From a virus: 64,000 nt of DNA. Of the stretch, positions 25,405 to 52,497 are shown in pieces. Where the stretch lies: the IMG/VR virus record IMGVR_UViG_3300025889_000073, positions 107,729 to 171,728 of that record; one strand, written 5' to 3'. A model generated the notes under the pieces. The model was not told the DNA's origin. It ran no database searches and saw nothing but the letters and a program-made list of their open reading frames with translations. The translations under genes were made by a program, and so were the position numbers. Positions within the stretch are counted from its first letter, which is position 1. Each line of letters starts with the position of its first letter.

Positions 25405-27026
25405 CAGAAGGCGGTTATCTTGGTAATGACCGACTAAAAAAAGTTGGTGTTGAAATATCATATACCGAAGAACAAGTCAAAGAAATTATAAAATGTTCTG
25501 AAGACCCGGTATATTTTATTAAAAACTATGTTCAGATCGTACACGTTGATAGAGGTTTAATACCTTTTGATATGTGGCCGTTTCAAGAAGAAATGGTCAA
25601 AGATTTCCATGAAAATCGTTTTTCAATTTGTAAGATGCCTCGGCAGGTTGGTAAAACGACTACGACAGTTGGTTATATGTTGTGGTGTGTTTTATTCCAA
25701 GATGAATACACGATTGCAATTTTGGCCAACAAAGGCGCCTTAGCTCAAGAAATACTTTCACGTTTACAGAAAGCTTATGAATATTTACCACTTTGGTTAC
25801 AACAAGGTATCATTACTTGGAACAAAAGAAGTGTTGAACTGGAAAACGGTTCAAAAATTTATGCTTATGCAACATCCGCAGCTGGTGTTCGTGGTGGCAC
25901 ATACAACTTAATATTTTTAGACGAATTTGCTTTCGTGCCTAAGAATATGGCAGACGATTTCTTTACGTCTACTTACCCTGTTATTTCTTCTGGTCAAACG
26001 ACAAAAGTTATCATTGTTTCAACCCCTTATGGTCTAAACCACTTTTATAAGATGTGGGTCGATGCGTCTGAAAGTCGTTCTCTTTACAAGCCAATTGAAG
26101 TTCATTGGTCGCAAGTTCCTGGCCGTGATGCTAAATGGCGTGAAGAAACCATAAGAAATACCAGTGAAGAACAGTTTCGCCAAGAATTTGAGACTGAGTT
26201 CATTGGTTCATCGGCAACTTTAATATCTGGTGCTAAATTAAGAAGTCTGGCATTTTTTAATCCTTTATCTTCCGATGATAATTTAGACATTTATGAACAA
26301 CCCAAACCCGGACATTTGTATATCTGTACGGTGGATTGTTCAGAAGGTGTTGAACAGGATTATTCAACTATAAATGTTCTTGATGTTTCCCAAACTCCAT
26401 ATAAACAAGTTGCTAAATACCGAAACAATAAATTACCATTATTGTTTTTTCCAACAATCATTTACTCGATTGCAAATAGATTCAATGAAGCGTTTGTTTT
26501 AATTGAGACAAATAATGTTGGCCAACAAGTTGTAGATATATTACACTATGACTTAGAATACGAAAATGTTTATAAAATTGACCATCATCACATAAAAGGA
26601 CAAACAATATCGGGTGGATTCAAACGAGCGGCCAGTTTTGGTATTAAAACCACCAAATCAGTTAAAAAAATTGGTTGTGCAAACCTCAAAACTCTAATAG
26701 AAACTGACAAATTAATCATTAATGATTTTGACACTATTGCAGAACTGAACACATTTACAAGAATCCGAGATACATACCAAGCAGAAGAAGGTAATAACGA
26801 TGACTTAGTAATGGGTTTAGTACTGTTTGCATGGCTAACCGCACAGTCATACTTCAGAGATTCTACGAATATTGACATTCGTAGAGTACTTATAGAAGAA
26901 TATAATATGGCCGAAGAAGAAAATATCACTCCTGTAGGTTTTATCGAAGATGGACGAAAAGAAGAAATTATAAATGATGGATATGACATTTGGACTGAAA
27001 GAGGTTATCCATCTTCAATTTTATAA
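25401..27026 (+). CDS. 17: Terminase large subunit gp17
   Basis: A 541-residue packaging ATPase/nuclease (T4: 610). Walker A is MPRQVGKTT near residue 79, Walker B LIFLDEFAF near residue 170, with coupling motif VSTPYG near 206. The RNase H-fold nuclease begins with TVDCSEGVEQDYS near 310 and includes VLIETNNVGQQV near 370. The N-terminal region is shorter than in T4. Its ATG overlaps the Dps-like stop (ATGA), so it is translationally coupled to it. Confidence 0.95.
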   Translation: MTEGGYLGNDRLKKVGVEISYTEEQVKEIIKCSEDPVYFIKNYVQIVHVDRGLIPFDMWPFQEEMVKDFHENRFSICKMPRQVGKTTTTVGYMLWCVLFQDEYTIAILANKGALAQEILSRLQKAYEYLPLWLQQGIITWNKRSVELENGSKIYAYATSAAGVRGGTYNLIFLDEFAFVPKNMADDFFTSTYPVISSGQTTKVIIVSTPYGLNHFYKMWVDASESRSLYKPIEVHWSQVPGRDAKWREETIRNTSEEQFRQEFETEFIGSSATLISGAKLRSLAFFNPLSSDDNLDIYEQPKPGHLYICTVDCSEGVEQDYSTINVLDVSQTPYKQVAKYRNNKLPLLFFPTIIYSIANRFNEAFVLIETNNVGQQVVDILHYDLEYENVYKIDHHHIKGQTISGGFKRAASFGIKTTKSVKKIGCANLKTLIETDKLIINDFDTIAELNTFTRIRDTYQAEEGNNDDLVMGLVLFAWLTAQSYFRDSTNIDIRRVLIEEYNMAEEENITPVGFIEDGRKEEIINDGYDIWTERGYPSSIL

Positions 27027-27030
27027 AACA

Positions 27031-27037
27031 CTAAATA
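27031..27037 (+). promoter_or_regulatory. Late promoter-like box upstream of gp18
   Basis: CTAAATA lies in the 61-base gap after gp17, about 50 bases before the gp18 ATG, which has its own AAGGAG site. It resembles the T4 late consensus TATAAATA. Confidence 0.45.
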
Positions 27038-27087
27038 GTATATCAAGAAATCTTAAATTGACCCTGTAAAAACATAAGGAGAAATCC

Positions 27088-28773
27088 ATGGCATTCCAAT
27101 TATCACCTGGGGTAAACGTATCTGAGATTGACCTCACTACGGTTGTCCCCGCAGTCGCCACTTCAACTGGCGCAATTGCTGGAAATTTTGCATGGGGTCC
27201 AGTCAATGAAATAGTTACCATTTCTGACGAGGTTCGCCTAGCAGACACATTTGGTAAACCTAATGAAGATAATTATGAACACTGGTTCTCAGCATCAAAC
27301 TTCCTATCATATTCTAATAATTTAAAAGTTGTTCGAGCTGCCGGCTCCGGAGCATTAAATGCTGGTTCCAATTCAACCGGAGTACTTGTCGGTAATGATG
27401 ATGAATATTCAAGTGCTACACTCACTCTAGTCACCCACGGCGAATGGATTGCAAGATTTCCTGGTGAACTAGGCAATTCACTTAGTGTTGAGATGGTAGA
27501 CAGCAACACAATTACCACCTTGGCCAATAGTGGTCTGGACAAATTTGTTCCTTCTGCTGCACCTGGAACATCTACTTGGGTAAATGCACAAGGAGGTTCG
27601 GATGATGAACTGCACGTTATTGTAATTGATGCTCAAGGCAAATTTACTGGTGTGGCAGGACAAGTTTTAGAAACATTCCTTTATGTCTCTAAAGCTTCTG
27701 ATGCTAAAGATGATTATGGTAATACAAATTATTACGCTCAAGTCATAAACAATAGGTCGAAATATATCCGTTGGGCTGCCCACACAGATTTGACGACGGC
27801 CGCCGAAAGTTGGGGAAATACAGCTGCCAATGTAACATTTGCTAACCTGACTTCAAATGTTACATCAATATTAAATGGTGGTGCTGATGGTACTTACAGT
27901 TCTGGAAATACTGTAACAGGTTTAGGTTTGTTTGCATCGGCTGAAGCTGTTGACGTTTCGTTGTTAATTGGTGGTCCTGCCGATTCGACTGTTGTTAGTG
28001 AACTACACGATATTGTCGAATCCAGAAAAGATTGTCTTGCTTTCATTTCACCAGAAAAAGCTGATGTTGTAAACAATGCTGGTTCTGAAGCAACAGACGC
28101 TATTGCATATCGTGATGGCTTAACATCATCTTCTTTTTTGGTGATGGATTCAAATTGGAAATATCAATACGACAAGTACAACGACAAGTATCGTTGGATT
28201 CCTTGTAACGCTGATGTTGCTGGTGCTTGTGCAAGAACAGACCAGCAACGTGACCCATGGTACTCGCCAGGTGGTTTAAATCGAGGTATACTTAAAAATG
28301 TTATTAAGTTGGCATGGAATCCAAATCAAGCCGACCGTGATAACCTCTACCAAAAAGGTATCAACCCAATAGTTTCTTTTGCTGGTGAAGGTACAGTTCT
28401 GTTTGGTGACAAAACAATGTTGTCTAAGCCTTCTGCATTTGACCGCATTAATGTTCGCCGGCTGTTTATTGTACTTGAGAAAGCAATTTCCCGTGCTGCA
28501 CGGTACTCAATGTTTGAATTTAATGACCAATTCACAAGAGCACAGTTTGTAAATTTGGTCGAACCATTCTTGCGTGATGTACAAGGCCGCCGTGGTATTA
28601 CCGACTTCCGTGTTGTTTGTGACGAATCCAATAATACTGGACAAGTTATTGACCGTAACGAATTTGTTGGTGATATCTACATTAAGCCCGCACGTTCTAT
28701 TAACTTTATCCAACTCAACTTTGTTGCGGTTCGCACAGGCGTATCGTTTAATGAAGTTGTAGGACAGTTCTAA
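27088..28773 (+). CDS. 18: Tail sheath protein gp18
   Basis: A 561-residue contractile sheath subunit (T4: 659). The start FQLSPGVNVSEIDLTTVVPAV and the C-terminal conserved domain (YSPGGLNRGILKNVIKLAWNPNQ near 390, then FGDKTMLSKPSAFDRINVRRLF near 435) are classic. The C-terminal FVGDIYIKPARSINFIQLNFVAVR is the handshake domain common to sheath proteins. It is expressed late and in many copies; a strong AAGGAG site and use of GGT/CGT codons fit that. Confidence 0.95.
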   Translation: MAFQLSPGVNVSEIDLTTVVPAVATSTGAIAGNFAWGPVNEIVTISDEVRLADTFGKPNEDNYEHWFSASNFLSYSNNLKVVRAAGSGALNAGSNSTGVLVGNDDEYSSATLTLVTHGEWIARFPGELGNSLSVEMVDSNTITTLANSGLDKFVPSAAPGTSTWVNAQGGSDDELHVIVIDAQGKFTGVAGQVLETFLYVSKASDAKDDYGNTNYYAQVINNRSKYIRWAAHTDLTTAAESWGNTAANVTFANLTSNVTSILNGGADGTYSSGNTVTGLGLFASAEAVDVSLLIGGPADSTVVSELHDIVESRKDCLAFISPEKADVVNNAGSEATDAIAYRDGLTSSSFLVMDSNWKYQYDKYNDKYRWIPCNADVAGACARTDQQRDPWYSPGGLNRGILKNVIKLAWNPNQADRDNLYQKGINPIVSFAGEGTVLFGDKTMLSKPSAFDRINVRRLFIVLEKAISRAARYSMFEFNDQFTRAQFVNLVEPFLRDVQGRRGITDFRVVCDESNNTGQVIDRNEFVGDIYIKPARSINFIQLNFVAVRTGVSFNEVVGQF

Positions 28774-39425: not shown

Positions 39426-39602
39426 ATGCAAAAACAAAAAATTGAACATCACATTGAACGACTGAAAGAAAAACACAAAGACTTAGAGTTGGATTTAATG
39501 GAAGCTCACGCACAATGGAACGATACTCTTGCCGCACAAATTAAAAAAGAAAAGTTAAAATTAAAAGACGAAATTGAAAAACTTAAAACACAGATATCAT
39601 GA
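39426..39602 (+). CDS. DUF465/YdcH-like small protein
   Basis: A 58-residue helical protein. IEHHIERLKEKHKDLELDLMEAH followed by IKKEKLKLKDEIEKLK (in part) is the DUF465 (YdcH) pattern, an antiparallel helical hairpin of unknown function common in proteobacteria and found in several T4-like aquatic phages. The start is one base after the gp55 stop and its stop overlaps the gp47 ATG, placing it in the gp55-47-46 operon. Confidence 0.7.
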   Translation: MQKQKIEHHIERLKEKHKDLELDLMEAHAQWNDTLAAQIKKEKLKLKDEIEKLKTQIS

Positions 39603-40672
39603 AAATATGTATACTTGGTGACACTCACTTCGGTGCTCGAGGGGATTCTTTAGACTTTCACAAATACTTCCAAAAATTTTACGATGATGTTTTGTTTCCT
39701 TATCTTTTGGAAAATAAAATTGATGTTGTCATGCAAATGGGAGATTTATTTGATAGGCGAAAGTTTGTCAACTTTAACTCACTTTATCTTTCCCGTAAAT
39801 ATTTCTTTGACAAACTACAAGAAAATAATATTCAATTGTATACTTTGGTCGGTAACCATGATGTTGCCTTTAAGAACACACTTGAGGTAAATTCACCATC
39901 GTTATTGTTGAACGAATACAAGAATATTTTCCTTGTAGAACAATTTTGGACGGAAGATTTTGATGGTGTCAAAATTGATATTGTGCCTTGGATTTGTGAT
40001 GAAAATCAAAAAGAAATTTTCGATAAAATGAAGGCATCCAAATCTCAAATTTGTTTTGGGCATTTTGAGATTGCGGGTTTTGAGATGGACAAAGGCAATA
40101 TTTGTGACCATGGGCTTGACAAAAAGGCCTTGGACAAGTATGATGTCGTATTGTCTGGACATTTTCATCATAAATCAACTGATGGTAATATTACTTATGT
40201 TGGTACTCCTTATGAAATGACATGGGCAGACTATAATGACCCGAAAGGTTTTCATATTTTTGATACCGACACCAGAGAATTGGAGTTCATAAAAAACCCA
40301 TTCACAATGTTCAATAAAATATTGTATGATGACAATGCTTCGGATTTTGAACAATGGAAAAATTATAACTATGCTGATAAAAAGAACACTTACGTCAAAG
40401 TTGTAGTTATAAACAAACAGAATCCTTTCTTGTTTGATTTTGTTATTGATAATTTGTACAAGGCAGGAATTTCCGACTTATCTATTGTGGAAGATTTTAA
40501 TGACTTGTATCTGATTGATGACCAAGACATTGTTGACCAGGCAGAAGATACTATGACCATCTTGTCTAAGTATATTGATAACTTAACACTTGATGTTGAA
40601 CCTGATAAATTGAAAACTTTGATGAGAGAACTTTATGTTGAAGCACTTAATGTTTCAGAAGTGGCTGAATGA
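39599..40672 (+). CDS. 47: Recombination nuclease subunit gp47
   Basis: A 357-residue Mre11/SbcD-like metallophosphoesterase (T4: 339). With gp46 it resects DNA ends to load UvsX. Phosphodiesterase motifs appear in order: GDTHFGARGD near residue 6, GDLFDRRKFV near 46, GNHD near 82, CFGHFEIAG near 148 and LSGHFHHKST near 185. The stop overlaps the gp46 start by ATGA, as usual for this pair. Confidence 0.95.
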   Translation: MKICILGDTHFGARGDSLDFHKYFQKFYDDVLFPYLLENKIDVVMQMGDLFDRRKFVNFNSLYLSRKYFFDKLQENNIQLYTLVGNHDVAFKNTLEVNSPSLLLNEYKNIFLVEQFWTEDFDGVKIDIVPWICDENQKEIFDKMKASKSQICFGHFEIAGFEMDKGNICDHGLDKKALDKYDVVLSGHFHHKSTDGNITYVGTPYEMTWADYNDPKGFHIFDTDTRELEFIKNPFTMFNKILYDDNASDFEQWKNYNYADKKNTYVKVVVINKQNPFLFDFVIDNLYKAGISDLSIVEDFNDLYLIDDQDIVDQAEDTMTILSKYIDNLTLDVEPDKLKTLMRELYVEALNVSEVAE

Positions 40673-42381
40673 TTTTATTTGAAAATATACGATGGAAAAA
40701 TTTATTAAGTACCGGTAATTATTTCACAGAGATTTCTCTGTCTAATAATGCAAACACTTTAATCGTAGGTGAAAATGGTTCTGGAAAAAGCACGATGCTT
40801 GATGCATTGTGTTTTGCTTTGTTTGGCAAACCATTTCGTGATATTAATAAACCACAGTTACTAAATTCCATCAATGGAAAAGATTGTGTTGTTGAAGTTA
40901 AGTTCAAAATTGGCAACAACAACTATAATATCATTCGAGGTATCAAACCTAACATATTTGAAATATACTGCAATGGTGATTTACTAAATCAAGATGCTGC
41001 ATCCAGAGACTACCAGGAACACTTGGAGAAGTTCATCCTTAAAATGAACTACAAATCTTTCACTCAGATAGTTATTCTTGGTTCGGCATCTTTTACACCC
41101 TTTATGCAATTGAAGGCAGCTGACCGTAGGGAAATTATTGAAGACCTTCTTGATATACAAATCTTTTCTACAATGAATGGCTTGGTTAAAGAACGATTAT
41201 CAAATAATAAAGACTTAACAACTACCAAAAAACATGAGATAGATTTAACTCAACAGAAATATGATATGCAGAAAAAGCATATTGATAATCTGAAACAAAA
41301 CAATGATGATAAGGTGAATCAATATGTTGTTGAAATAGACAACAATAATGCCATAGTTAATTCTTTGTTGTCCAATGTTGCAATACTTACGACACAAACA
41401 GAAGAACTACAGAAAATTGTAAGTAATAAAATTGACACCGAAAACAAGGTCAAAAAAATTACAAAGTTTGAATCTCAAATAGAAAGTAACCTATCCAAGT
41501 TTAGAAAAGATATTGGGTTTTTTCAAACACATGATAATTGTCCAACTTGCCGGCAGGCCATCGAAGAAGGTTTTAAAGAAGAAGAACTAAACAATTTGAA
41601 CAATAAAGTTTCTGAATGTGAACATGGTTTATCTGAACTTGAAAAGAAACTGTTGGTAGAACAAAACAAATTAAATGACATATCAGAAAAACAAAAAGAA
41701 CTCAATCAGAAACAAGTAGAAATTGCCACTATTAATACTACAATCACCGAAACAAATAAGATGATTGCTAGGTTGAATAGGTTGGTTGAAGAACTTAAAG
41801 ACACAAAGCAATTTACCGATAAAGAAGAACAAGAATTAAACATCATTAATGATACATTAAATGACTTAAAGCAACATTTACGCACTCTTATAGATGAAAA
41901 AACATATTATGAAGTCGCATCAACATTGTTGCGTGATAATGGTATTAAAACAAAGATTGTCAAACAGTATTTACCTGTTATCAATAAATTAGTCAACAAG
42001 TATTTGGCTTCTTTGGACTTTTTTGTAAACTTCAACCTTGATGAATCATTTAAAGAAACGATTAAATCTAGACATAGAGACGAGTTTAGTTATCATAATT
42101 TTTCTGAAGGTGAAAAACAACGCATTGATATGGCATTGATGTTAACTTGGCGGTCTATTGCAAAACTTAGAAATTCTGCCAACACAAATCTTTTAATACT
42201 TGATGAGACATTTGATTCTTCACTTGATACTAACGGCACGGAAGAATTGATGAAGATACTTCATATGTTAGAAGGTGTAAACCTGTTTGTCATTTCACAT
42301 AAAGGTGATATATTACAGGATAAATTTTTAAATGTTATTAGATTTTCAAAAGAAAAGAATTTTTCGAGGATAGTAAAATGA
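40669..42381 (+). CDS. 46: Recombination nuclease ATPase subunit gp46
   Basis: A 570-residue Rad50/SbcC-like ATPase (T4: 560). Walker A is GENGSGKSTML near residue 34. Two long coiled-coil arms flank a zinc hook CPTCRQ near residue 290. The ABC signature FSEGEKQRID is near 480 and Walker B LLILDETFDSSLD near 507. It partners gp47. Its C-terminus overlaps the peptide deformylase start by ATGA, so that accessory gene is in the same operon. Confidence 0.95.
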   Translation: MILFENIRWKNLLSTGNYFTEISLSNNANTLIVGENGSGKSTMLDALCFALFGKPFRDINKPQLLNSINGKDCVVEVKFKIGNNNYNIIRGIKPNIFEIYCNGDLLNQDAASRDYQEHLEKFILKMNYKSFTQIVILGSASFTPFMQLKAADRREIIEDLLDIQIFSTMNGLVKERLSNNKDLTTTKKHEIDLTQQKYDMQKKHIDNLKQNNDDKVNQYVVEIDNNNAIVNSLLSNVAILTTQTEELQKIVSNKIDTENKVKKITKFESQIESNLSKFRKDIGFFQTHDNCPTCRQAIEEGFKEEELNNLNNKVSECEHGLSELEKKLLVEQNKLNDISEKQKELNQKQVEIATINTTITETNKMIARLNRLVEELKDTKQFTDKEEQELNIINDTLNDLKQHLRTLIDEKTYYEVASTLLRDNGIKTKIVKQYLPVINKLVNKYLASLDFFVNFNLDESFKETIKSRHRDEFSYHNFSEGEKQRIDMALMLTWRSIAKLRNSANTNLLILDETFDSSLDTNGTEELMKILHMLEGVNLFVISHKGDILQDKFLNVIRFSKEKNFSRIVK

Positions 42382-42959
42382 GTGATATATTAACAATTGA
42401 TACTTCAAAAGATTTGTATACTAATTCTAAACCATTAGAACCTTTGCCTCTGTTTGATGATAATCATCCTTATCTATCTAAAGTTATGCCTGATTACGAT
42501 ACTACGGCACTACCTAATACGAAAATGACAAACTTGGTACAACAATTGAAGATGACTATGAAACGATATGGCGGCATAGGGTTATCTGCCAATCAATGTG
42601 GTGTTATTGAAAGAATCTTTGTAATTGGCCATGAAGATTTCTCTTTGACTTGTATTAACCCAAAAGTTGTTGAACTTTCGGAAGACTTGGCAAGTCAGAG
42701 TGAAGGTTGCCTCAGCTACCCAGGTTTATATCTTAAAATAAAAAGACCGTCTTGGATTGTAGGTGAATTTACCACAGAAGAAGGCAAGACTGAACGTATG
42801 AGAATGGAAGGTGTAACTGCTAGATGTTTCCTACATGAACTGGACCACATGGACGGTAAAAAGTTTGTTGAACTTGTTGGTCCTGCAACACTAATGACGG
42901 CTAAAAGAAAACAAGAAAAGATGATGAAGAAATTTGTTAGAAAGCAAAAGAAAAAATAA
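42378..42959 (+). CDS. def: Peptide deformylase
   Basis: A 193-residue phage peptide deformylase, which removes the formyl group from nascent N-terminal methionine. All three family motifs are intact: GGIGLSANQCG near residue 65, EGCLSYPG near residue 108 and HELDHMDG near residue 153, giving the Cys/His/His metal site. A Lys-rich C-terminal tail (KRKQEKMMKKFVRKQKKK) follows. Phage-encoded versions are known in marine T4-like phages. It overlaps gp46 by ATGA and its TAA overlaps the next ATG. Confidence 0.93.
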   Translation: MSDILTIDTSKDLYTNSKPLEPLPLFDDNHPYLSKVMPDYDTTALPNTKMTNLVQQLKMTMKRYGGIGLSANQCGVIERIFVIGHEDFSLTCINPKVVELSEDLASQSEGCLSYPGLYLKIKRPSWIVGEFTTEEGKTERMRMEGVTARCFLHELDHMDGKKFVELVGPATLMTAKRKQEKMMKKFVRKQKKK

Positions 42960-44233
42960 TGTCATATTCATTCGACCCTAAAGACGATGTAGAAACACAA
43001 TGGCAGAAATGGCAAGATTCCGGCCTTGAGTTTGAAAACATTGATACTGATAAACTTCGTGAGAAAACTATTGAAGAACTCACTTATGTTTCTCAAATGG
43101 ATGTCCGTGAATACACACTATTCCAAAAGTGGTGTGAAGTACAAGACAAATACCCTTCTGTTGTTGTAAATGATTTGTGGGAAGGTGAAAGACTTGTACT
43201 GAAAGATGAAAGTCAACGGCGTGATATTGAAGAAGTGAAAACTAATATTTGGATGCCACAAGACCCAGAAGAATATTTGGCATTAGAACCTGAACTGGTC
43301 TATGCCAACAAACAAGATGATTTGCCTGAATTGTGGAACTGTATTCGTACATTCTCATCCACAATGAAGAACAATGCCAATATTGGGCGTAATCTAAACT
43401 TTATTGTAAAAGATAAAATTACAAAGAAGTATCTTGGTGTTATTTGTATTTCATCTGATTTCTTAGACTTAACACCGAGAGACAAGTACATTGGTTGGGA
43501 CAGAGAACTCAAAACCAAGAAGATGATTAATCATAGTGCCATTGGTTCTACAATTGTGCCTTTGCAACCACTTGGTTTTAATTATGTTGGTGGTAAGTTA
43601 CTTGCTCTATTGTGTCTATCTGATGACGTACAAGAAAAGTGGAAAGAATTGTATGGTGATATACTTGCAGCTGTCACCACAACATCTCTTTATGGTAAGA
43701 CCAAGGCTGGTGGGTTATCACAATACGATAACTTAGATTATTGGCAGTCTATGGGTTTCACAGCAGGTTCTGTCTCATTCGAACCACTAAAAGAAACACG
43801 ATACATGATTCGGGAATGGCTGAAAACAAATCACACTAGAAAATACTTTGATTGGTATGTTGCAAAGAAACCATCAGGTCAACCACATAAGCGTGACCAT
43901 AAGAATCGTTCACTTCAATTTGTTTACTCTCAATTAAATATACCAAAAGAATTAATCAAATCAGAACACGCTCGGGGAATTTATTGGTCGCCACTTTATG
44001 CAGAAACCTGTGAGTTTCTCCGAGGCGAACATGATGGCAAAAATATGAAAAAGTGTTTTGAATCTAGTGTAAATGACCTAAGTAATATATGGAAACAGAA
44101 GCACGCCAAGCCAAGAATCAAACAATTGGTTAAAAAAGGCAGAGTTTCACATGAAACCTTGTTCTACGACAATTTGGCAATTATGAATTGGGAACAGGTG
44201 AAAGAACAATATTTGCCACAAGTCGGCCGATAA
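42959..44233 (+). CDS. Conserved phage protein, paralogue of 63308 gene
   Basis: A 424-residue protein. Its core (about residues 140-270) has NFIVKDKITKKYLGVICISS, VPLQPLGFNYVGGKLLALLC, and TTTSLYGKTKAGGLSQYDNL. The truncated protein at 63308 repeats this scheme (VPAQPFGFNYLGGKLLAAIC; TTSLYGSSKAVSQYD), so they are paralogues. The layout recalls GNAT-like DUF4338 proteins, but this is inference from pattern. An N-terminal acidic helical region and a basic C-terminal third frame it. Function unknown. It starts at the last base of the deformylase stop. Confidence 0.6.
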   Translation: MSYSFDPKDDVETQWQKWQDSGLEFENIDTDKLREKTIEELTYVSQMDVREYTLFQKWCEVQDKYPSVVVNDLWEGERLVLKDESQRRDIEEVKTNIWMPQDPEEYLALEPELVYANKQDDLPELWNCIRTFSSTMKNNANIGRNLNFIVKDKITKKYLGVICISSDFLDLTPRDKYIGWDRELKTKKMINHSAIGSTIVPLQPLGFNYVGGKLLALLCLSDDVQEKWKELYGDILAAVTTTSLYGKTKAGGLSQYDNLDYWQSMGFTAGSVSFEPLKETRYMIREWLKTNHTRKYFDWYVAKKPSGQPHKRDHKNRSLQFVYSQLNIPKELIKSEHARGIYWSPLYAETCEFLRGEHDGKNMKKCFESSVNDLSNIWKQKHAKPRIKQLVKKGRVSHETLFYDNLAIMNWEQVKEQYLPQVGR

Positions 44234-44256: not shown

Positions 44257-44330
44257 GCGGATGTAGTTCAATGGTAGAACGGCAGCCTTCCAAGCTTCAT
44301 ATGTGGGTTCGATTCCCTCCATCCGCTCCA
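44257..44330 (+). tRNA. tRNA-Gly (anticodon UCC)
   Basis: A 74-base cloverleaf with encoded CCA: acceptor GCGGATG pairs with CATCCGC, D-arm GTTC/GAAC, anticodon loop CTTCCAA with anticodon TCC, T-loop TTCGATT. The anticodon stem has a C-U mismatch (28/42) and the T-stem a U-U mismatch (50/64). It reads GGA (and GGG) codons. These are abundant in the glycine-rich fibre genes, so it may support late protein synthesis; that link is inferred. Confidence 0.9.
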
Positions 44331-44402: not shown

Positions 44403-44431
44403 TTGACACCTCACTCAAAATGGATTATAAT
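44403..44431 (+). promoter_or_regulatory. Consensus sigma70 promoter for the VWA gene
   Basis: TTGACA (44403-44408), a 17-base spacer and TATAAT (44426-44431), all exact. It lies 29 bases upstream of the ATG at 44460. Confidence 0.9.
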
Positions 44432-44459: not shown

Positions 44460-46808
44460 ATGACATTTACGGTTCAACAAAAAACGGCACTAGCCAAACT
44501 AATGGCAACCGAGAACCTAACGGTTGAACACCAAAAAATTCAAACCGCAAAATTTGACCCTATTAAACGGGTACTTTATTTGCCAATTTGGCAAGATATG
44601 AATGGTTTTATGTATGACCTTTTGACCGGCCATGAAGTTGGCCATGCTTTGTATACTCCTGCCGAAGGCTGGCATGATGTTGCTTCTGATACATCCAAAG
44701 GTCGTTATTATAAAAACTTTTTAAATGTTGTTGAGGACGCTCGAATTGAGAAAAAAGTCCAGCGTAAATATCCTGGTCTCCGTCCTTCCTTCATTAAAGC
44801 TTATAATGAATTAATGAATCGTGATTTCTTTGGTATTAAAAATAAAGAAATCGATGGTCTGCCTTTTATTGACCGTCTAAACATTTTCACCAAATCGCAA
44901 TATAGTGCTTCTTGGATTTCTTTTAGTGCTCAGGAAGAATTAATTATCGAGCGTATCAAAACACTTGAAACTTGGGATGATGTACTAAAATTAACCCAAC
45001 AAATTTATGATTACTCTAAGGAAGAGCAATCAGAAATGTTTGAGGAAGTATATAACGATTTTGATTTCGATGATAACAATTATGATTATGATTCCGATGA
45101 ATATGATAATTATGATGATTATGGTGATTCAACTGAAACGGAAGACTTAAACGACAATTTTCAAAACAAAAATTCTGACAAACCAGAAGATAATGATGAA
45201 AATGATAATGATGATGTTTCCAGTGATGAAAATTCGGAAAACACGGAAGATGATACAACCGGAAAAATAAATCGTTTTAAAGATTCTAATCCTTATGATG
45301 GCCAATTTCAACCTCGGTGTCAAACTGATGAAACTTTCCGTCAAAAAGAATCAATTCTGCTTAATGAAAAATCAAAAGAATATGTTTATATACAAATTCC
45401 AAAACCTAAATTGGAAAAAATTATAACTCCATGGAAACGTGTTCAGGAACAAATGACTAAACACTATGAAACTGAAATATCAGAATACGGTCTTTATACT
45501 AAAGAGGATGTCAATTCTTGGGTAAAAGATTTTAAAAACAAAAATGAGCGTTATGTTGGTTTGCTTGCAAAAGAATTTGAAATGCGTAAAGCCGCCAAAG
45601 CGTTTAGTAAATTAAAAATTTCTGATACTGGTGATATCGATATTAATAAATTGGCATCATATAAATTTGATGATAATATTTTCCGTAAAGTTATGAGGGT
45701 GCCAAAAGGCAAATCTCACGGACTTGTACTATTGTTAGATAAATCTGGTTCTATGGGTGATAACATGGCCGGTTCTATCGAACAAATATTGGTGCTTTCT
45801 TTGTTTTGTCGCAAAGTGAGTATTCCTTTTGTTGTTTATGGTTTTGGTAATTCAACAGAAGCATTGGCTTGTGATTTAGGTTGTGACATGAGTGACCGAA
45901 CAAAATTGGTTGATTACTGGAATACCTTTGAAACAAATGAAGGAACTCTCTCCCTTGATGGTGTTCGTTTGCGTGAATATTTAAATTCATCTATGACAAA
46001 TGCTGAGTTTTCTATGGCTTTGCGTAATATGATTTGTTTGCAATCTGCTTTCGAACGCCGTTATTCAAATTATTATAGTGGCCGCCGAGCTTATGCAATT
46101 CCTCTATCGGAAGAAATGTCCAACACTCCACTTACTGAAGCTATTGTTGCAACAGCATCAATCATGAAAGATTTCAAACGTAAACATAATTTAGACCTTA
46201 CAAGTTTGGTTATTGTCCACGATGGTGATGCTGATTGGGTTCGTTGTTATAATACTATCATTACAAGCAAAGACGGTGAAAGTAGATTATCCCGTGAACA
46301 ATTTAATACAGAATCCCAAAATGTGATTTTGTGTGACCGTAAAAATAAATATGAAAAGAAATTGAAATGGTTGTTTCAAAAAAATAATATAATGTATGAT
46401 GTTTTAGATTGGTTCAAATCAACCACAGGTTCAAAAGTTTTTGGTTTCTTTTTGACTGGTTCTAAAACATCACACATAAAAAATTCCATTTATCATCGTT
46501 ACCATTTTGAAGATGGAAGTGATTTGCAACAAATTAGGAACCGAAGCTTTTATTCTTTTGATGACAAACTGAAACAATTGGTCAAACAAATGAAAAAAGA
46601 TAAGTTTCTTTCCAGTAAACCACAAGGATATGATAATTTTTTCCTGATTACTGGTGGCGATGACTTGAAAACTGAACAGGAAGAAATTGATGTTGGTGAA
46701 GGTAAAGTTACTTCTGCTAAATTGACAAAAGCTTTTATGAAATTCAATAAGAAAAAATCAATTAACCGTGTTTTGGTATCTAAATTCATTGAAGGAATGT
46801 CTACCTAA
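44460..46808 (+). CDS. CobT-like VWA-domain protein with HExxH motif
   Basis: A 782-residue protein. Residues 50-65 contain GHEVGHAL, an HExxH zinc-peptidase-like motif, within a region about VVEDARIEKKVQRKYPGLRP that resembles CobT-type proteins. Residues about 190-280 are a very acidic Asp/Asn/Glu-rich linker. A C-terminal von Willebrand factor A domain begins near residue 420, with MIDAS motif DKSGSMGDNM near 427. CobT/VWA proteins pair with MoxR/CobS AAA ATPases, and one follows at 46898. Cobaltochelatase or substrate remodelling roles are known for such pairs; the phage target is unknown. It has its own consensus promoter. Confidence 0.75.
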   Translation: MTFTVQQKTALAKLMATENLTVEHQKIQTAKFDPIKRVLYLPIWQDMNGFMYDLLTGHEVGHALYTPAEGWHDVASDTSKGRYYKNFLNVVEDARIEKKVQRKYPGLRPSFIKAYNELMNRDFFGIKNKEIDGLPFIDRLNIFTKSQYSASWISFSAQEELIIERIKTLETWDDVLKLTQQIYDYSKEEQSEMFEEVYNDFDFDDNNYDYDSDEYDNYDDYGDSTETEDLNDNFQNKNSDKPEDNDENDNDDVSSDENSENTEDDTTGKINRFKDSNPYDGQFQPRCQTDETFRQKESILLNEKSKEYVYIQIPKPKLEKIITPWKRVQEQMTKHYETEISEYGLYTKEDVNSWVKDFKNKNERYVGLLAKEFEMRKAAKAFSKLKISDTGDIDINKLASYKFDDNIFRKVMRVPKGKSHGLVLLLDKSGSMGDNMAGSIEQILVLSLFCRKVSIPFVVYGFGNSTEALACDLGCDMSDRTKLVDYWNTFETNEGTLSLDGVRLREYLNSSMTNAEFSMALRNMICLQSAFERRYSNYYSGRRAYAIPLSEEMSNTPLTEAIVATASIMKDFKRKHNLDLTSLVIVHDGDADWVRCYNTIITSKDGESRLSREQFNTESQNVILCDRKNKYEKKLKWLFQKNNIMYDVLDWFKSTTGSKVFGFFLTGSKTSHIKNSIYHRYHFEDGSDLQQIRNRSFYSFDDKLKQLVKQMKKDKFLSSKPQGYDNFFLITGGDDLKTEQEEIDVGEGKVTSAKLTKAFMKFNKKKSINRVLVSKFIEGMST

Positions 46809-46835
46809 ATTGTTGTTTTTGTGCGACACAGCTGG

Positions 46836-46864
46836 TTGCCAAACCTATCCGGTTGTGTTATAAT
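46836..46864 (+). promoter_or_regulatory. Sigma70 promoter for the AAA ATPase gene
   Basis: TTGCCA (46836-46841), a 17-base spacer and TATAAT (46859-46864) lie 34 bases before the ATG, which has an AAAAGGAAAT site. Confidence 0.85.
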
Positions 46865-46897
46865 TCTTTATAAATTGTGAAAAAGGAAATTTTTATT

Positions 46898-48073
46898 ATG
46901 GCAAAGCGTTCTGAAATCCGTGAAAAATTCATCAATGCCTTGGCTGCGACTGGCCAAGATACCGTTACGGTCGATGAAATTAAAACTATTTGTTCGCAAA
47001 TTGATATTGCTCACCCCTACTGGTTTACTAATGACACCTCAAATCGTGTAAAACGTGGTACATATAAAGTGCCTGGTGTTACTGGTGTTGCTTTACAAGC
47101 GCAAGTGATTCCTATGACAAAACCTGTTGAGAAATCTTCTAACAAAATTGTAAATGTTCAAACTGAATTGGAAGAAACCAATTTGGTTCCTACGTCATAT
47201 ACTAACTATGTTCCATTTGGCAACTTTGATGATGTTTTGTCAATCGTTAAATCGATGCGTTTCTTTCCCGTTTTTGTTTCTGGCCATTCTGGTAACGGCA
47301 AGACCATGTCAATTGAACAGGCCTGTGCCAAGGCCAAACGTAAATTTGTTTGCGTTTCTATGACACCAGAAACCGATGAGAGTGACCTTCTTGGTAATTA
47401 TGTACTAATCGATGGTAATATGGAATGGCGTGATGGTCCTGTGACTACTGCTGCTCGCCAAGGCGCTGTCCTTTGTATTGATGAAATCGATTATGGTGCT
47501 CAGAACCTGTCCTCATTGCAACGGGTGCTTGAAGGCAAACCCTTTATGCTTAAGAAAAAAGGTGAATTGATTACACCTGCACCTGGTTTCACCGTGTTTG
47601 CTACTGCCAACACCAAAGGTAAAGGTTCGGATGATGGTCGTTATATGTTCACCAATGTTCTCAACGAAGCTTTTCTTGAGCGTTTTCGTACCACGATGGA
47701 ACAGGAGTTTCCGCCCGTAACTATTGAACGTAAAATCATTAAAAAAGAATTGGCCTCTGCTGGCCGTGAAGATGATGATTTTGCTGAAAAACTTGTAACA
47801 TGGGCTGATGTTATTCGCAAAACATTCGCCGATGGCGGTTGCGATGAGGTGATTTCTACTCGGCGCTTGGTTCATATTGTTGAAACTTATGGTATCTTTG
47901 GTGATAAAATCAAAGCACTTACCTTGTGTTTGAACCGTTTTGACGATGACACCAAGGCATCATTTGTTGATTTATATACCAAAGTTGATGCTGGTGCTTC
48001 TGCCGAACAAATTCTAACGGAACAACCAGAACAAACAGAAACTGGTGTAGGTGATAATGATATCCCGTTTTAA
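46898..48073 (+). CDS. cobS: CobS/MoxR-like AAA ATPase
   Basis: A 391-residue AAA+ ATPase. The ATG at 46898 has a clear ribosome-binding site; an upstream in-frame start at 46877 would add 7 residues. Walker A is GHSGNGKTM near residue 128, Walker B VLCIDEIDYG near 190, sensor ATANTKGKG near 228, and arginine-finger region LERFRTTME near 260. The N-terminal 60 residues are a CobS-like helical domain with TNDTSNRVKRGTYKVPG. CobS-type ATPases are frequent in marine phages, normally subunits of cobalt chelatase. Here it stands directly after a CobT/VWA partner, under its own promoter. A B12 link is plausible but unproven. Confidence 0.8.
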   Translation: MAKRSEIREKFINALAATGQDTVTVDEIKTICSQIDIAHPYWFTNDTSNRVKRGTYKVPGVTGVALQAQVIPMTKPVEKSSNKIVNVQTELEETNLVPTSYTNYVPFGNFDDVLSIVKSMRFFPVFVSGHSGNGKTMSIEQACAKAKRKFVCVSMTPETDESDLLGNYVLIDGNMEWRDGPVTTAARQGAVLCIDEIDYGAQNLSSLQRVLEGKPFMLKKKGELITPAPGFTVFATANTKGKGSDDGRYMFTNVLNEAFLERFRTTMEQEFPPVTIERKIIKKELASAGREDDDFAEKLVTWADVIRKTFADGGCDEVISTRRLVHIVETYGIFGDKIKALTLCLNRFDDDTKASFVDLYTKVDAGASAEQILTEQPEQTETGVGDNDIPF

Positions 48074-48085
48074 TCTCTGCCTGTA

Positions 48086-48120
48086 TAAGTATTGACATTC
48101 CATACTTAATACAATATAAT
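48086..48120 (+). promoter_or_regulatory. Consensus sigma70 promoter with operator-like inverted repeat
   Basis: TTGACA (48092-48097), a 17-base spacer and TATAAT (48115-48120), all exact. A 7-base inverted repeat TAAGTAT/ATACTTA (48086-48092, 48102-48108) brackets the -35, as an operator would. Confidence 0.85.
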
Positions 48121-48194: not shown

Positions 48195-48467
48195 ATGTCT
48201 GTTAAAGCTAAAGTTCTAGCGTATCTTTCGAAAGATTCGGAGTATAATACTCTAACCGCAAATAAAATGCGTTCCGTTTTCGGCGCAAAAAACCCCTCGG
48301 CCGTCATTGACGAGCTGCGTAAAGAGGGTCATGCTATTTACTTGAATAGCCGTACCAATGCAAGTGGCGAGAAAGTTTCTTTCTACCGTCTTGGTACTCC
48401 AACCAAGCGTATGATTGCTGCTGGTATCGCAGCCCTGCGTAATTCAGGTGTTCGTGCTTTTGCCTAA
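48195..48467 (+). CDS. Winged-helix DNA-binding protein candidate
   Basis: A 90-residue protein with the layout of a small winged helix: VKAKVLAYLSK, then NTLTANKMRSVFGAKNPSAVIDELRKEGHAIYL (in part) as the recognition region, and a beta-wing GEKVSFYRLGTPTKRM. The C-terminus is Ala-rich and basic. Similar small HTH proteins occur in aquatic T4-like phages. It stands alone between a consensus promoter and a strong terminator, so it is an independent transcription unit. It may regulate itself through the inverted repeat at its promoter; this is inference. Confidence 0.65.
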   Translation: MSVKAKVLAYLSKDSEYNTLTANKMRSVFGAKNPSAVIDELRKEGHAIYLNSRTNASGEKVSFYRLGTPTKRMIAAGIAALRNSGVRAFA

Positions 48468-48485: not shown

Positions 48486-48523
48486 AAGAGAGAGGATATA
48501 TAATTATGTCCTCTCTCTTTTTT
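48486..48523 (+). terminator. Intrinsic terminator after the winged-helix gene
   Basis: An 11-base-pair stem AAGAGAGAGGA/TCCTCTCTCTT with a 12-base loop is followed by a T run. A CTAAATA box at 48464 lies just upstream. Confidence 0.88.
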
Positions 48524-50583: not shown

Positions 50584-50858
50584 TTGATTACAAATATAGT
50601 GAGGATAGAATCTTAAAAGAATTACAGTCTTATGTAGATTCTACTTACAACGAACACTACTCACAAAATAAATTTCAGGCAACTGAGTTTATTATGGATA
50701 GTGGCCACGGCGAAGGGTTCTGTATTGGTAATATTATGAAATATGCTCAACGATACGGTAAAAAAGATGGATACAATAGAAAAGACTTGCTTAAAGTTTT
50801 ACACTATGGTATAATGGCTCTTCACAATCATGATTTGAAAAAGGATAATAGATTATGA
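50580..50858 (+). CDS. DUF3310-like protein
   Basis: A 92-residue protein. The C-terminal FCIGNIMKYAQRYGKKDGYNRKDLLKVLHYGIMAL (about residues 47-82, in part) is the core of DUF3310, a small phage-encoded helical protein of unknown function. ATGA overlaps join it to the upstream gene and to gp45. Its job in the replication operon is unknown. Confidence 0.75.
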   Translation: MIDYKYSEDRILKELQSYVDSTYNEHYSQNKFQATEFIMDSGHGEGFCIGNIMKYAQRYGKKDGYNRKDLLKVLHYGIMALHNHDLKKDNRL

Positions 50859-51535
50859 AATTTTCGAGTGAAACAATTGGTATTTTAAAAAACTTTGGTA
50901 ATATTAACCAAGGCATCATGTTTAAAAAAGGTAAGACACTTAAAACTGTTTCGCCACATAAAAACATTTTGACTCATGCTGAGATTCAGGAAGATATTCC
51001 TACTGACTTTGGTGTTTATGATTTGCCACATTTCCTCTCGACCATGTCGGCATTTAAAGATGTTCCAAGTCTGGAGTTTGAAGAAAAACAAATGTTTATT
51101 GTTGGACCACAAGGTGACAAATTCACCTATCGTTTTTGTGAACCAACAATGATTGTTCTTCCGCCTGAAAAAGAATTGGTCATGCCTGACCCAGAAGTTA
51201 AGTTTGAAATTTCTAATGATAACTTTGACAAATTCATGCGAGCTGCAAACATTCTATCGTCACCACAAATTGCAATCAAATCGGATGGCCAAAATGTGAA
51301 TATTGTTTCTTTGGATATGCAAAACGACTCTGCACATACCTATTCACTTAATGTTTCTGAAGGTAATGGTGATACCTATCAGATTGTATTTAAAACTGAA
51401 AACTTCAGTAAAATACTTTCTGGTACTTATGAATTTTCTTATTCGTCTAAGGGTGTTTCACACTTTAAAAATAAGAATCTTAATTTGAAATACTGGGTGA
51501 CGAGTGAAGCTGGTTCCAGTTTCACCAAAGGTTAA
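50855..51535 (+). CDS. 45: Sliding clamp gp45
   Basis: A 226-residue trimeric DNA polymerase processivity clamp (T4: 228). It also activates late transcription with gp33 and gp55. The N-terminal KFSSETIGILKNFGNINQGI and the central DFGVYDLPHFLSTMSAF are conserved. It overlaps the DUF3310-like gene by ATGA, so translation depends on the upstream genes whose leader holds the hairpin array. Confidence 0.93.
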   Translation: MKFSSETIGILKNFGNINQGIMFKKGKTLKTVSPHKNILTHAEIQEDIPTDFGVYDLPHFLSTMSAFKDVPSLEFEEKQMFIVGPQGDKFTYRFCEPTMIVLPPEKELVMPDPEVKFEISNDNFDKFMRAANILSSPQIAIKSDGQNVNIVSLDMQNDSAHTYSLNVSEGNGDTYQIVFKTENFSKILSGTYEFSYSSKGVSHFKNKNLNLKYWVTSEAGSSFTKG

Positions 51536-51564
51536 TTTTATTATGTTTTTTGTGAGGAGTTCCT

Positions 51565-52497
51565 ATGGAACATTTGTTATGGACAGAGAAGTATCGGCCT
51601 CAGACGGTGGAAGATTGTATTCTTCCTGACCGTCTGAAAAAGCCGTTTCAAGAATATGTAGACCAAAAAAATATACCAAACTTTTTATTGAGTGGCGGCG
51701 CCGGTGTCGGTAAGACAACCGTTGCTAAAGCAATGTGTGAAGAAATTGGTTGCGATTATATGGTCATCAATGGTTCTGATGAATCTGGCATTGATACTTT
51801 TAGGATGAAGATTAAGAACTATGCTTCTTCAATGTCTCTTGCTGGTGGCCGAAAAGTCATCATCATTGACGAAGCTGATTATCTAAACCCAAATTCAACA
51901 CAACCAGCTTTGCGTAATGCGATTGAAGAATTCGCAAGCAATTGTTCGTTCATTTTCACCTGTAATTACAAGAATCGAATCATTGAACCACTCCACTCTC
52001 GGTGTGCAGTAATTGATTTTGGTTTGAGAAATGGTGAAAAACAAAAGATGGCCTCTGCGTTTTTCAAGCGTATTCAGTCTATTTTGCAAAGTGAAAAAAT
52101 CGACTTTGAAGACAAGGTTCTTGCTGAGTTGGTGAAGAAACACTTTCCAGATTTTCGGAGAGTGATTAATGAGTTACAGCGTTACAGTCAATTTGGTTCT
52201 ATTGATACTGGTATCTTGGCACAAATCGCCGATATATCACTATCTGAAATTATAAAGAGCCTCAAAGAGAAAGATTTCGGTTCTGTTCGTAAATGGGTTG
52301 CTACACATGAAGTAGACCCAAATACACTTTACCGTAAACTTTATGATGCAATGTATGATTCGCTGAAACCCCAATCTATCCCTCAAGCGGTTGTTATTCT
52401 TGCTGACTACCAGTATAAGACGGCTTTTGTTGCTGACCAAGAAATTAATACAGTTGCTTGTTTGACTGAGTTGATGGTGAATTGTGAATTTGTATGA
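51565..52497 (+). CDS. 44: Clamp loader large subunit gp44
   Basis: A 310-residue AAA+ clamp loader ATPase (T4: 319). Walker A is SGGAGVGKTTVAK near residue 46, Walker B VIIIDEADYLN near 105, and the SRC motif LHSRCAVIDF near 150. It has its own GAGGAG site after a 29-base gap. Its stop overlaps the following membrane-protein start (ATGA), which separates it from gp62. Confidence 0.95.
   Translation: MEHLLWTEKYRPQTVEDCILPDRLKKPFQEYVDQKNIPNFLLSGGAGVGKTTVAKAMCEEIGCDYMVINGSDESGIDTFRMKIKNYASSMSLAGGRKVIIIDEADYLNPNSTQPALRNAIEEFASNCSFIFTCNYKNRIIEPLHSRCAVIDFGLRNGEKQKMASAFFKRIQSILQSEKIDFEDKVLAELVKKHFPDFRRVINELQRYSQFGSIDTGILAQIADISLSEIIKSLKEKDFGSVRKWVATHEVDPNTLYRKLYDAMYDSLKPQSIPQAVVILADYQYKTAFVADQEINTVACLTELMVNCEFV

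Follow-up and report, generated by a model that had tools for sequence, protein, structure and literature searches.

The final 64 kilobases of the virus record IMGVR_UViG_3300025889_000073 in IMG/VR (positions 107,729 to 171,728 of a 171,728-base record; hereafter the window, in whose coordinates positions are given unless stated otherwise) carry T4-type replication genes and, at 44460-48073, two adjacent genes encoding a protein with a von Willebrand factor A (VWA) domain and a MoxR/CobS-like AAA+ ATPase (ATPases associated with diverse cellular activities). Our analysis suggests that the pair is an AAA+/VWA machine with a zincin-like domain, which would remodel, and perhaps clip, putative target proteins at phage replication sites; we give this overall explanation a probability of about 50%. 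New here are a conserved HExxH plus Glu-Asp (E-D) site in the VWA protein, the presence of the pair beside replication or recombination genes in three genomic settings, and the improbability of a vitamin B12 role.

The pair belongs to a phage family already known from its sequence clusters. The CobT-like VWA protein has 782 amino acids (44460..46808; plus strand, as are all coordinates given for the pair, its promoters and the gp44 to gp47 genes) and matches phrog_459, annotated 'peptidase', over residues 5-779 (E 6.6e-176), while the ATPase of 391 amino acids (46898..48073) matches phrog_249, annotated 'porphyrin biosynthesis' (E 2.6e-103). Searches with tblastn found relatives of the VWA protein in 463 phage records and of the ATPase in 533, mostly from cyanophages and pelagiphages, and 160 IMG/VR stretches contain relatives of the VWA protein. 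In all 78 IMG/VR relatives with enough downstream sequence, the ATPase gene lies directly 3′ of the VWA gene on the same strand. Pairwise distances of the two proteins correlate across 59 genomes (r = 0.82, to which shared ancestry contributes part). Pfam assigned the ATPase to AAA_5 (76.2 bits) and CbbQ_C (22.1 bits), both above cut-off, and its Walker A (GHSGNGKT, 47282-47305) and Walker B (CIDEID, 47474-47491) motifs are of types kept across 60 ATPases.

AlphaFold2 predicted a confident VWA domain and a confident N-terminal domain, linked by a disordered acidic stretch (residues 201-281, 45060..45302; predicted local distance difference test score, pLDDT, 28-37). The C-terminal part, from about residue 289 to 782 (45324..46808), consists of a helical region and the VWA domain, for which Foldseek listed the NorD VWA domain (9qh6/9qhe) and the MDN1-MIDAS structure (8ql1) among the closest matches (probability 1.00/0.99-1.00). 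Its metal ion-dependent adhesion site (MIDAS) reads D427-K-S429-G-S431-M (45738-45755) and is completed by T556 (46125-46127) and D588 (46221-46223). No substitution of these five MIDAS residues occurs among 55 aligned homologues, nor of H58, E59 and H62 in the HExxH motif; given this invariance, we regard neither motif as a chance occurrence. Pfam found no domain in the VWA protein, and a PF00092 search of the window genome was empty because the domain is too divergent; searches of the protein against the PDB (phmmer and profile) returned only low-complexity matches to the acidic linker. Profile comparison of the T4-like and DnaE-type VWA families gave a good match (99.3%) over the VWA domain. 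An earlier note on this DNA had recognized the DKSGSM MIDAS, the HEVGH motif near the N-terminus and a MoxR-VWA pair, and had proposed looking for co-occurrence in other phages. Both motifs are present, and the Pfam assignments, the NorD- and MDN1-like VWA fold and the constant adjacency of the genes make it nearly certain that the two proteins constitute a MoxR-VWA machine.

The most distinctive part of the VWA protein is its N-terminal domain (residues 1-200, 44460..45059), which AlphaFold2 also predicted when given alone (pLDDT 86.3; predicted template modelling score 0.83). The HEVGH motif (44631..44645) lies within a predicted helix spanning residues 49-65 and consists of H58, E59 and H62, whereas the earlier note had placed its histidines one residue too low, at 57 and 61. 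A second predicted helix (residues 84-103) bears E92-D93 in the motif N-x-x-E-D (44733..44738), the proposed third metal ligand. The protein thus has HExxH with a downstream glutamate, the pattern by which a gluzincin third ligand is recognized. In an alignment of 59 N-domains, drawn from T4-like, DnaE-type and Gordonia-type relatives and as little as 15% identical, only eight columns proved invariant: P42, G57, H58, E59, H62, T66, N89 and D93. E92 is glutamate in 58 of the 59 and aspartate in the remaining one. Among proteins with complete N-termini, HExxH is present in 136/136 T4-like, 29/30 DnaE-type and 30/33 IncC/island proteins, and HExxH together with the downstream E-D in 136/136, 28/30 and 30/33, respectively. 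Foldseek matched the domain to selecase (probability 0.98), ArdC (0.85) and abylysin (0.72), with weak E-values of 0.15-0.62; further matches were IrrE/PprI and aminopeptidases, and all are HExxH zincins. Because these E-values are weak, the fold assignment depends on the agreement of independent signs, which together make a zincin-fold, metal-binding domain probable. The fold prediction that the earlier note had called for thus placed the motif on a helix in a domain whose best structural matches are zincins, and the peptidase-like chemistry it had raised is plausible in view of the conserved HExxH and E92-D93 and a model resembling minigluzincins. Actual cleavage by the domain is possible, although we rate it at somewhat less than even odds.

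A metal held by HExxH might instead be passed on. In such a scheme the pair would be a metal-insertion chaperone like NorQ/NorD, supplying a metalloenzyme of phage DNA metabolism such as the gp46/47 nuclease, whose genes adjoin the pair in T4-like relatives, or the small subunit of ribonucleotide reductase. T4 has these metalloenzymes but is not known to carry such a pair, which counts against this idea. Delivery alone would also not need E59, the general base of zincins, and its conservation in all 59 N-domains points to more than plain metal binding; the recipients would, moreover, have to differ among the three genomic contexts described below. We therefore consider metal insertion rather unlikely, despite the precedent of NorQD, through which nitric oxide reductase receives its non-heme iron (PMC13036017, PMC9976466).

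The genomic surroundings of the pair point to DNA metabolism. In the window, the gp47 and gp46 recombination nuclease genes (39599..42381) precede the pair and the gp45 sliding clamp and gp44 clamp loader genes (50855..52497) follow it, and the order gp47-gp46-VWA-ATPase-gp45-gp44 is common to the window, cyanophage S-PM2 and Pelagibacter phage HTVC008M. Of 112 T4-like loci with at least 4 kilobases of flank on one side, 105 carry gp47, gp46, gp45 or gp44 genes. In DnaE-type phages and phage-plasmids, dnaE or ligase genes occur in 29/33 loci. The SSU5 locus runs DnaB, primase, ligase, VWA, ATPase, DNA polymerase, single-stranded DNA-binding protein (SSB), exonuclease and recombinase, with structural genes at least 14 kilobases away, and in ICP2 the VWA-MoxR genes are followed by primase, helicase and polymerase. 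The third setting is not a phage at all: on an IncC plasmid, the order is MoxR ATPase, a hypothetical gene, ssb, bet, exo, DUF3150 and VWA (locus L166, 7411-15404), and related ssb-bet-exo/MoxR/DUF3150/zincin-VWA modules occur in many bacterial genomes (e.g., loci L207, L227, L239 and L248). Within the flanks read, ssb, bet or exo is present in 15/33 IncC/island loci and DUF3150, an uncharacterized family, in 22/33. We consider the IncC and island operons a stronger argument for a replication or recombination role than the T4-like location. This argument uses descriptive counts, and several independent settings were needed because replication genes span about one-third of the SSU5 and ICP2 genomes. 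Chance placement in the T4-like replication region alone was dropped as an explanation once the DnaE and ssb-bet-exo contexts appeared. On balance, we lean slightly towards a role of the pair in DNA replication or recombination.

The same contexts bear on a proposal made for a similar pair in group 2.2 jumbo phages, namely that it is a virion assembly chaperone that also processes structural proteins (PMC7824862). The jumbo-phage MoxR/metallopeptidase-vWA pair has the same domain architecture, and that paper cites a report of a MoxR-vWA pair involved in tail assembly in an archaeal virus. However, IncC conjugative plasmids and bacterial islands, which make no virions, have relatives beside ssb-bet-exo, the pair is away from structural genes in SSU5 and ICP2, and its promoters suggest early rather than late expression. 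Virion assembly is thus an unlikely function, and a virion protein as the target, one of the options in the earlier note, is less likely than a target in replication or recombination.

Each gene of the pair has its own sigma70 promoter with a 17-base spacer, as the earlier note had described: TTGACA-17-TATAAT before the VWA gene (44403..44431; 12/12 match) and TTGCCA-17-TATAAT before the ATPase gene (46836..46864; 11/12). Exact TTGACA-N16-18-TATAAT sequences occur three times in the window, one of them 5′ of the VWA gene, against 0.14 expected, and none of 100 shuffles reached three. In 77 relatives with about 50-65% protein identity, all VWA upstream regions contain a site scoring at least 10/12 about 57 bases before the start, 69 of them at least 11. 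Scores of at least 11/12 were also found in 67/77 ATPase upstream regions and in only 0.35% of single-base shuffles; in the other 10 loci, the ATPase gene lies within about 40 nucleotides of the VWA gene and lacks such a promoter. Since they are kept in diverged relatives, both promoters are under selection. The ATPase reading frame is open from a GTG at 46877, but the ATG at 46898 is most likely its start, because the Shine-Dalgarno sequence AAAGGAAA lies between the two and thus follows the GTG, and because the -10 box ends at 46864. The host-type sigma70 sequences suggest early expression of the pair. Early expression would also suit a machine for counter-defence or host takeover whose target, a host protein with no part in replication, is removed or cleaved, and the N-domain has the antirestriction protein ArdC among its Foldseek matches. 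PADLOC, however, gave no match, the conservation of the pair as core genes at a fixed position in cyanophages is unlike the variability of counter-defence genes, and the ssb-bet-exo operons point to DNA metabolism, so that we regard counter-defence as improbable.

The pair has been described before under another name. Liu et al. (2021, PMC8651126) report viral cobST, identify the cyanophage 'peptidase' as CobT and propose the use of host CobN; according to this and earlier cyanophage papers, a viral CobS/CobT pair would join host CobN in a cobaltochelatase, raise cobalamin synthesis and so aid ribonucleotide reduction. Homology of the ATPase to CobS is indeed clear (TIGR01650, 82 bits; CobS structures 9ujv/9udk, E 1e-24), Pfam CobT was matched by 4/55 VWA homologues, and the SSU5 VWA protein matched CobT_C at 2.5e-112. 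Yet the 82 bits of the ATPase are far below the 558.55 cut-off of the CobS equivalog, and the VWA protein did not match the CobT equivalog, TIGR01651. The one cellular CobT examined, from a Sphingomonas plasmid, lacks HExxH, is encoded in the order cobS-cobT and aligned with the T4-like VWA family in profile comparison only over the ARIE helix, with low probability. CobN was not found in the phage record, although the host of the window phage may have it; nor was CobN found in an E. coli control genome, and yet the pair occurs on phage-plasmids of E. coli and Klebsiella. The window phage and SSU5 encode class I NrdA/NrdB, which needs no B12, and ICP2 has no annotated ribonucleotide reductase. 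A B12 role is therefore quite improbable, and the chelatase activity offered in the earlier note is not borne out. Instead, the metalloprotease-type site and the replication or recombination neighbours in unrelated phages and plasmids suggest work on DNA-bound proteins.

How such an AAA+/VWA remodeller might work can be sketched by analogy with NorQ/NorD, whose structures, published in 2026, show a finger of the VWA domain inside the AAA+ pore and led to a proposed twisting mechanism (PMC13036017). The MoxR-type ATPase and its VWA co-factor would act as one machine: the ATPase would form a ring, the VWA finger would enter its pore, the MIDAS metal would grip an acidic residue of the target, and ATP hydrolysis would twist or pull it. 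The minigluzincin-like N-domain, on its flexible acidic tether, would retain the remodelled protein and probably cleave it. The target is presumably a DNA-bound protein of the host, the phage replisome or a recombination complex, and the machine would thereby help the phage, early in infection, to replicate or recombine its DNA. Where a lineage lacks the two histidines, the N-domain would only bind. A further point in favour is the N-terminal extension of the ATPase (46898..47092), which by eye is winged-helix-like (..NRVKRGTYKVP..). An RGxYxV-type motif is present in the N-terminal module of 114/135 T4-like ATPases, while DnaE-type ATPases often have a CxxC/D...H...H module resembling a C2H2 finger (strict C2H2 pattern in 5/31); the one cellular CobS examined, from Sphingomonas, has neither. 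The extension gave no significant match in Pfam or the PDB, and the DnaE-type N-termini gave weak Ros/MucR and C2H2 matches (E 0.06-0.19) that by eye fit a CxxC...HxxxH pattern.

Several observations weigh against this explanation. The Foldseek E-values of the N-domain are weak (at least 0.15), and DNA binding by the ATPase modules is suggested by inspection, with no profile above chance. Both histidines are lost in Pseudomonas phage nickie, Stenotrophomonas phage BUCTxx99 and an Acinetobacter plasmid, and 3/33 island copies have also lost the HExxH histidines, so that the zincin site is not always needed. In Gordonia phage Kvothe and Rhodococcus phage ReqiDocB7, the pair has no recognizable replication neighbours and is surrounded mostly by genes of unknown function, and location in a replication module may mirror expression timing rather than function. 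The explanation as a whole is purely computational, built from sequence, models and gene context. As a separate observation, the three histidine-less VWA relatives (loci L086, L087 and L168) keep the glutamate (SEISK, REVST and QEVAK) in otherwise similar loci; they are apparent pseudoenzymes.

A wider proposal, which we put forward tentatively and regard as doubtful, is that viral 'CobST' is misnamed and represents one branch of a machine widespread among mobile elements, in which a MoxR ATPase and a protease-armed VWA partner clear or cleave DNA-bound proteins for replication or recombination, in a logic like that of eukaryotic p97-SPRTN. T4-like phages, DnaE-type phage-plasmids and ssb-bet-exo operons would all carry it, and cellular CobT would share its ancestry and have lost the metal site. 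The matter has ecological weight, as cobS is counted among the core auxiliary metabolic genes of cyanophages, with a role in B12 synthesis, and serves to mark marine phages in ecological work (PMC9983427). Should the pair prove to be a replication or recombination remodeller, many metagenome-based claims of viral B12 functions would need revision, and phages, IncC resistance plasmids and bacterial islands would share a protease-linked AAA+ remodeller. We found no proposal of a MoxR-VWA role in DNA replication in the open-access literature, some of it available in part, and an earlier mention elsewhere is possible.

Other genes around the pair deserve mention. Just 5′ of it, between peptide deformylase and tRNA-Gly genes, lies a DruA-like gene (42959-44233; Pfam Druantia DruA, E 3.3e-24). 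The tRNA-Gly (TCC) gene (44257-44330), the sole tRNA gene found in the window, is directly 5′ of the VWA gene, and a tRNA gene likewise directly precedes the VWA gene of SSU5. On the 3′ side, a weakly winged-helix-like protein of 90 amino acids is encoded at 48195-48467; its gene has a perfect sigma70 promoter of its own at 48092 and, on its 3′ side, a hairpin of 15 pairs resembling a terminator (48486-48519), and so is probably transcribed singly. Outside the window, the genes for the large and small subunits of ribonucleotide reductase flank one for a fatty acid desaturase (Pfam, E 1.1e-15; L092:6970-7761), and the small subunit gene is directly followed by one for isocitrate lyase (Pfam ICL, E 1.8e-101; record positions ~26969-28201, L092:8970-10202), which is unusual for a T4-like phage.

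Among known systems, the pairs of S-PM2 and HTVC008M (PHROG 459/249) are closest, matching over the whole length in the same order and the same position between gp46/47 and gp45/44, with HExxH and MIDAS kept. Identity to these cyanophage and pelagiphage proteins is about 30-33% for the VWA protein and up to about 50% for the ATPase, and in the window phage, unlike these, further genes separate gp46 from the pair, among them those for peptide deformylase and the DruA-like protein. The viral 'CobST' of haloarchaeal and bacterial tailed viruses (PMC8651126) is the same two-gene cluster; the B12 function assigned to it is unsupported here, and the portion of that paper available to us mentions neither HExxH nor the replication/recombination context. 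The pair of group 2.2 jumbo phages (Iyer et al., 2021, PMC7824862), which we compared by description only, is alike in architecture, and its proposed role is in virion assembly. Neither source, to the extent available, links the pair to replication or recombination genes.

Cellular and plasmid systems share fewer features. NorQ/NorD of denitrifiers likewise combine a MoxR ATPase with a MIDAS VWA protein, and the NorD VWA domain is among the best structural matches; however, a NorD-type protein from a Sinorhizobium plasmid lacks HExxH, and the target of NorQ/NorD is nitric oxide reductase, whereas the neighbours of the window pair are gp46/47 and gp45/44. In CobS/CobT of the Sphingomonas plasmid (L167), the AAA+ and VWA domains are homologous and the CobT N-domain keeps the ARIE helix, but DAFAL aligns at the HExxH position, the gene order is opposite and there are no DNA-metabolism neighbours. 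Although the MoxR and VWA genes of the IncC/island module are separated by others, and the phage loci lack its DUF3150 protein, the module combines a MoxR ATPase with a VWA protein bearing both HExxH...ED and MIDAS, as does the phage pair.

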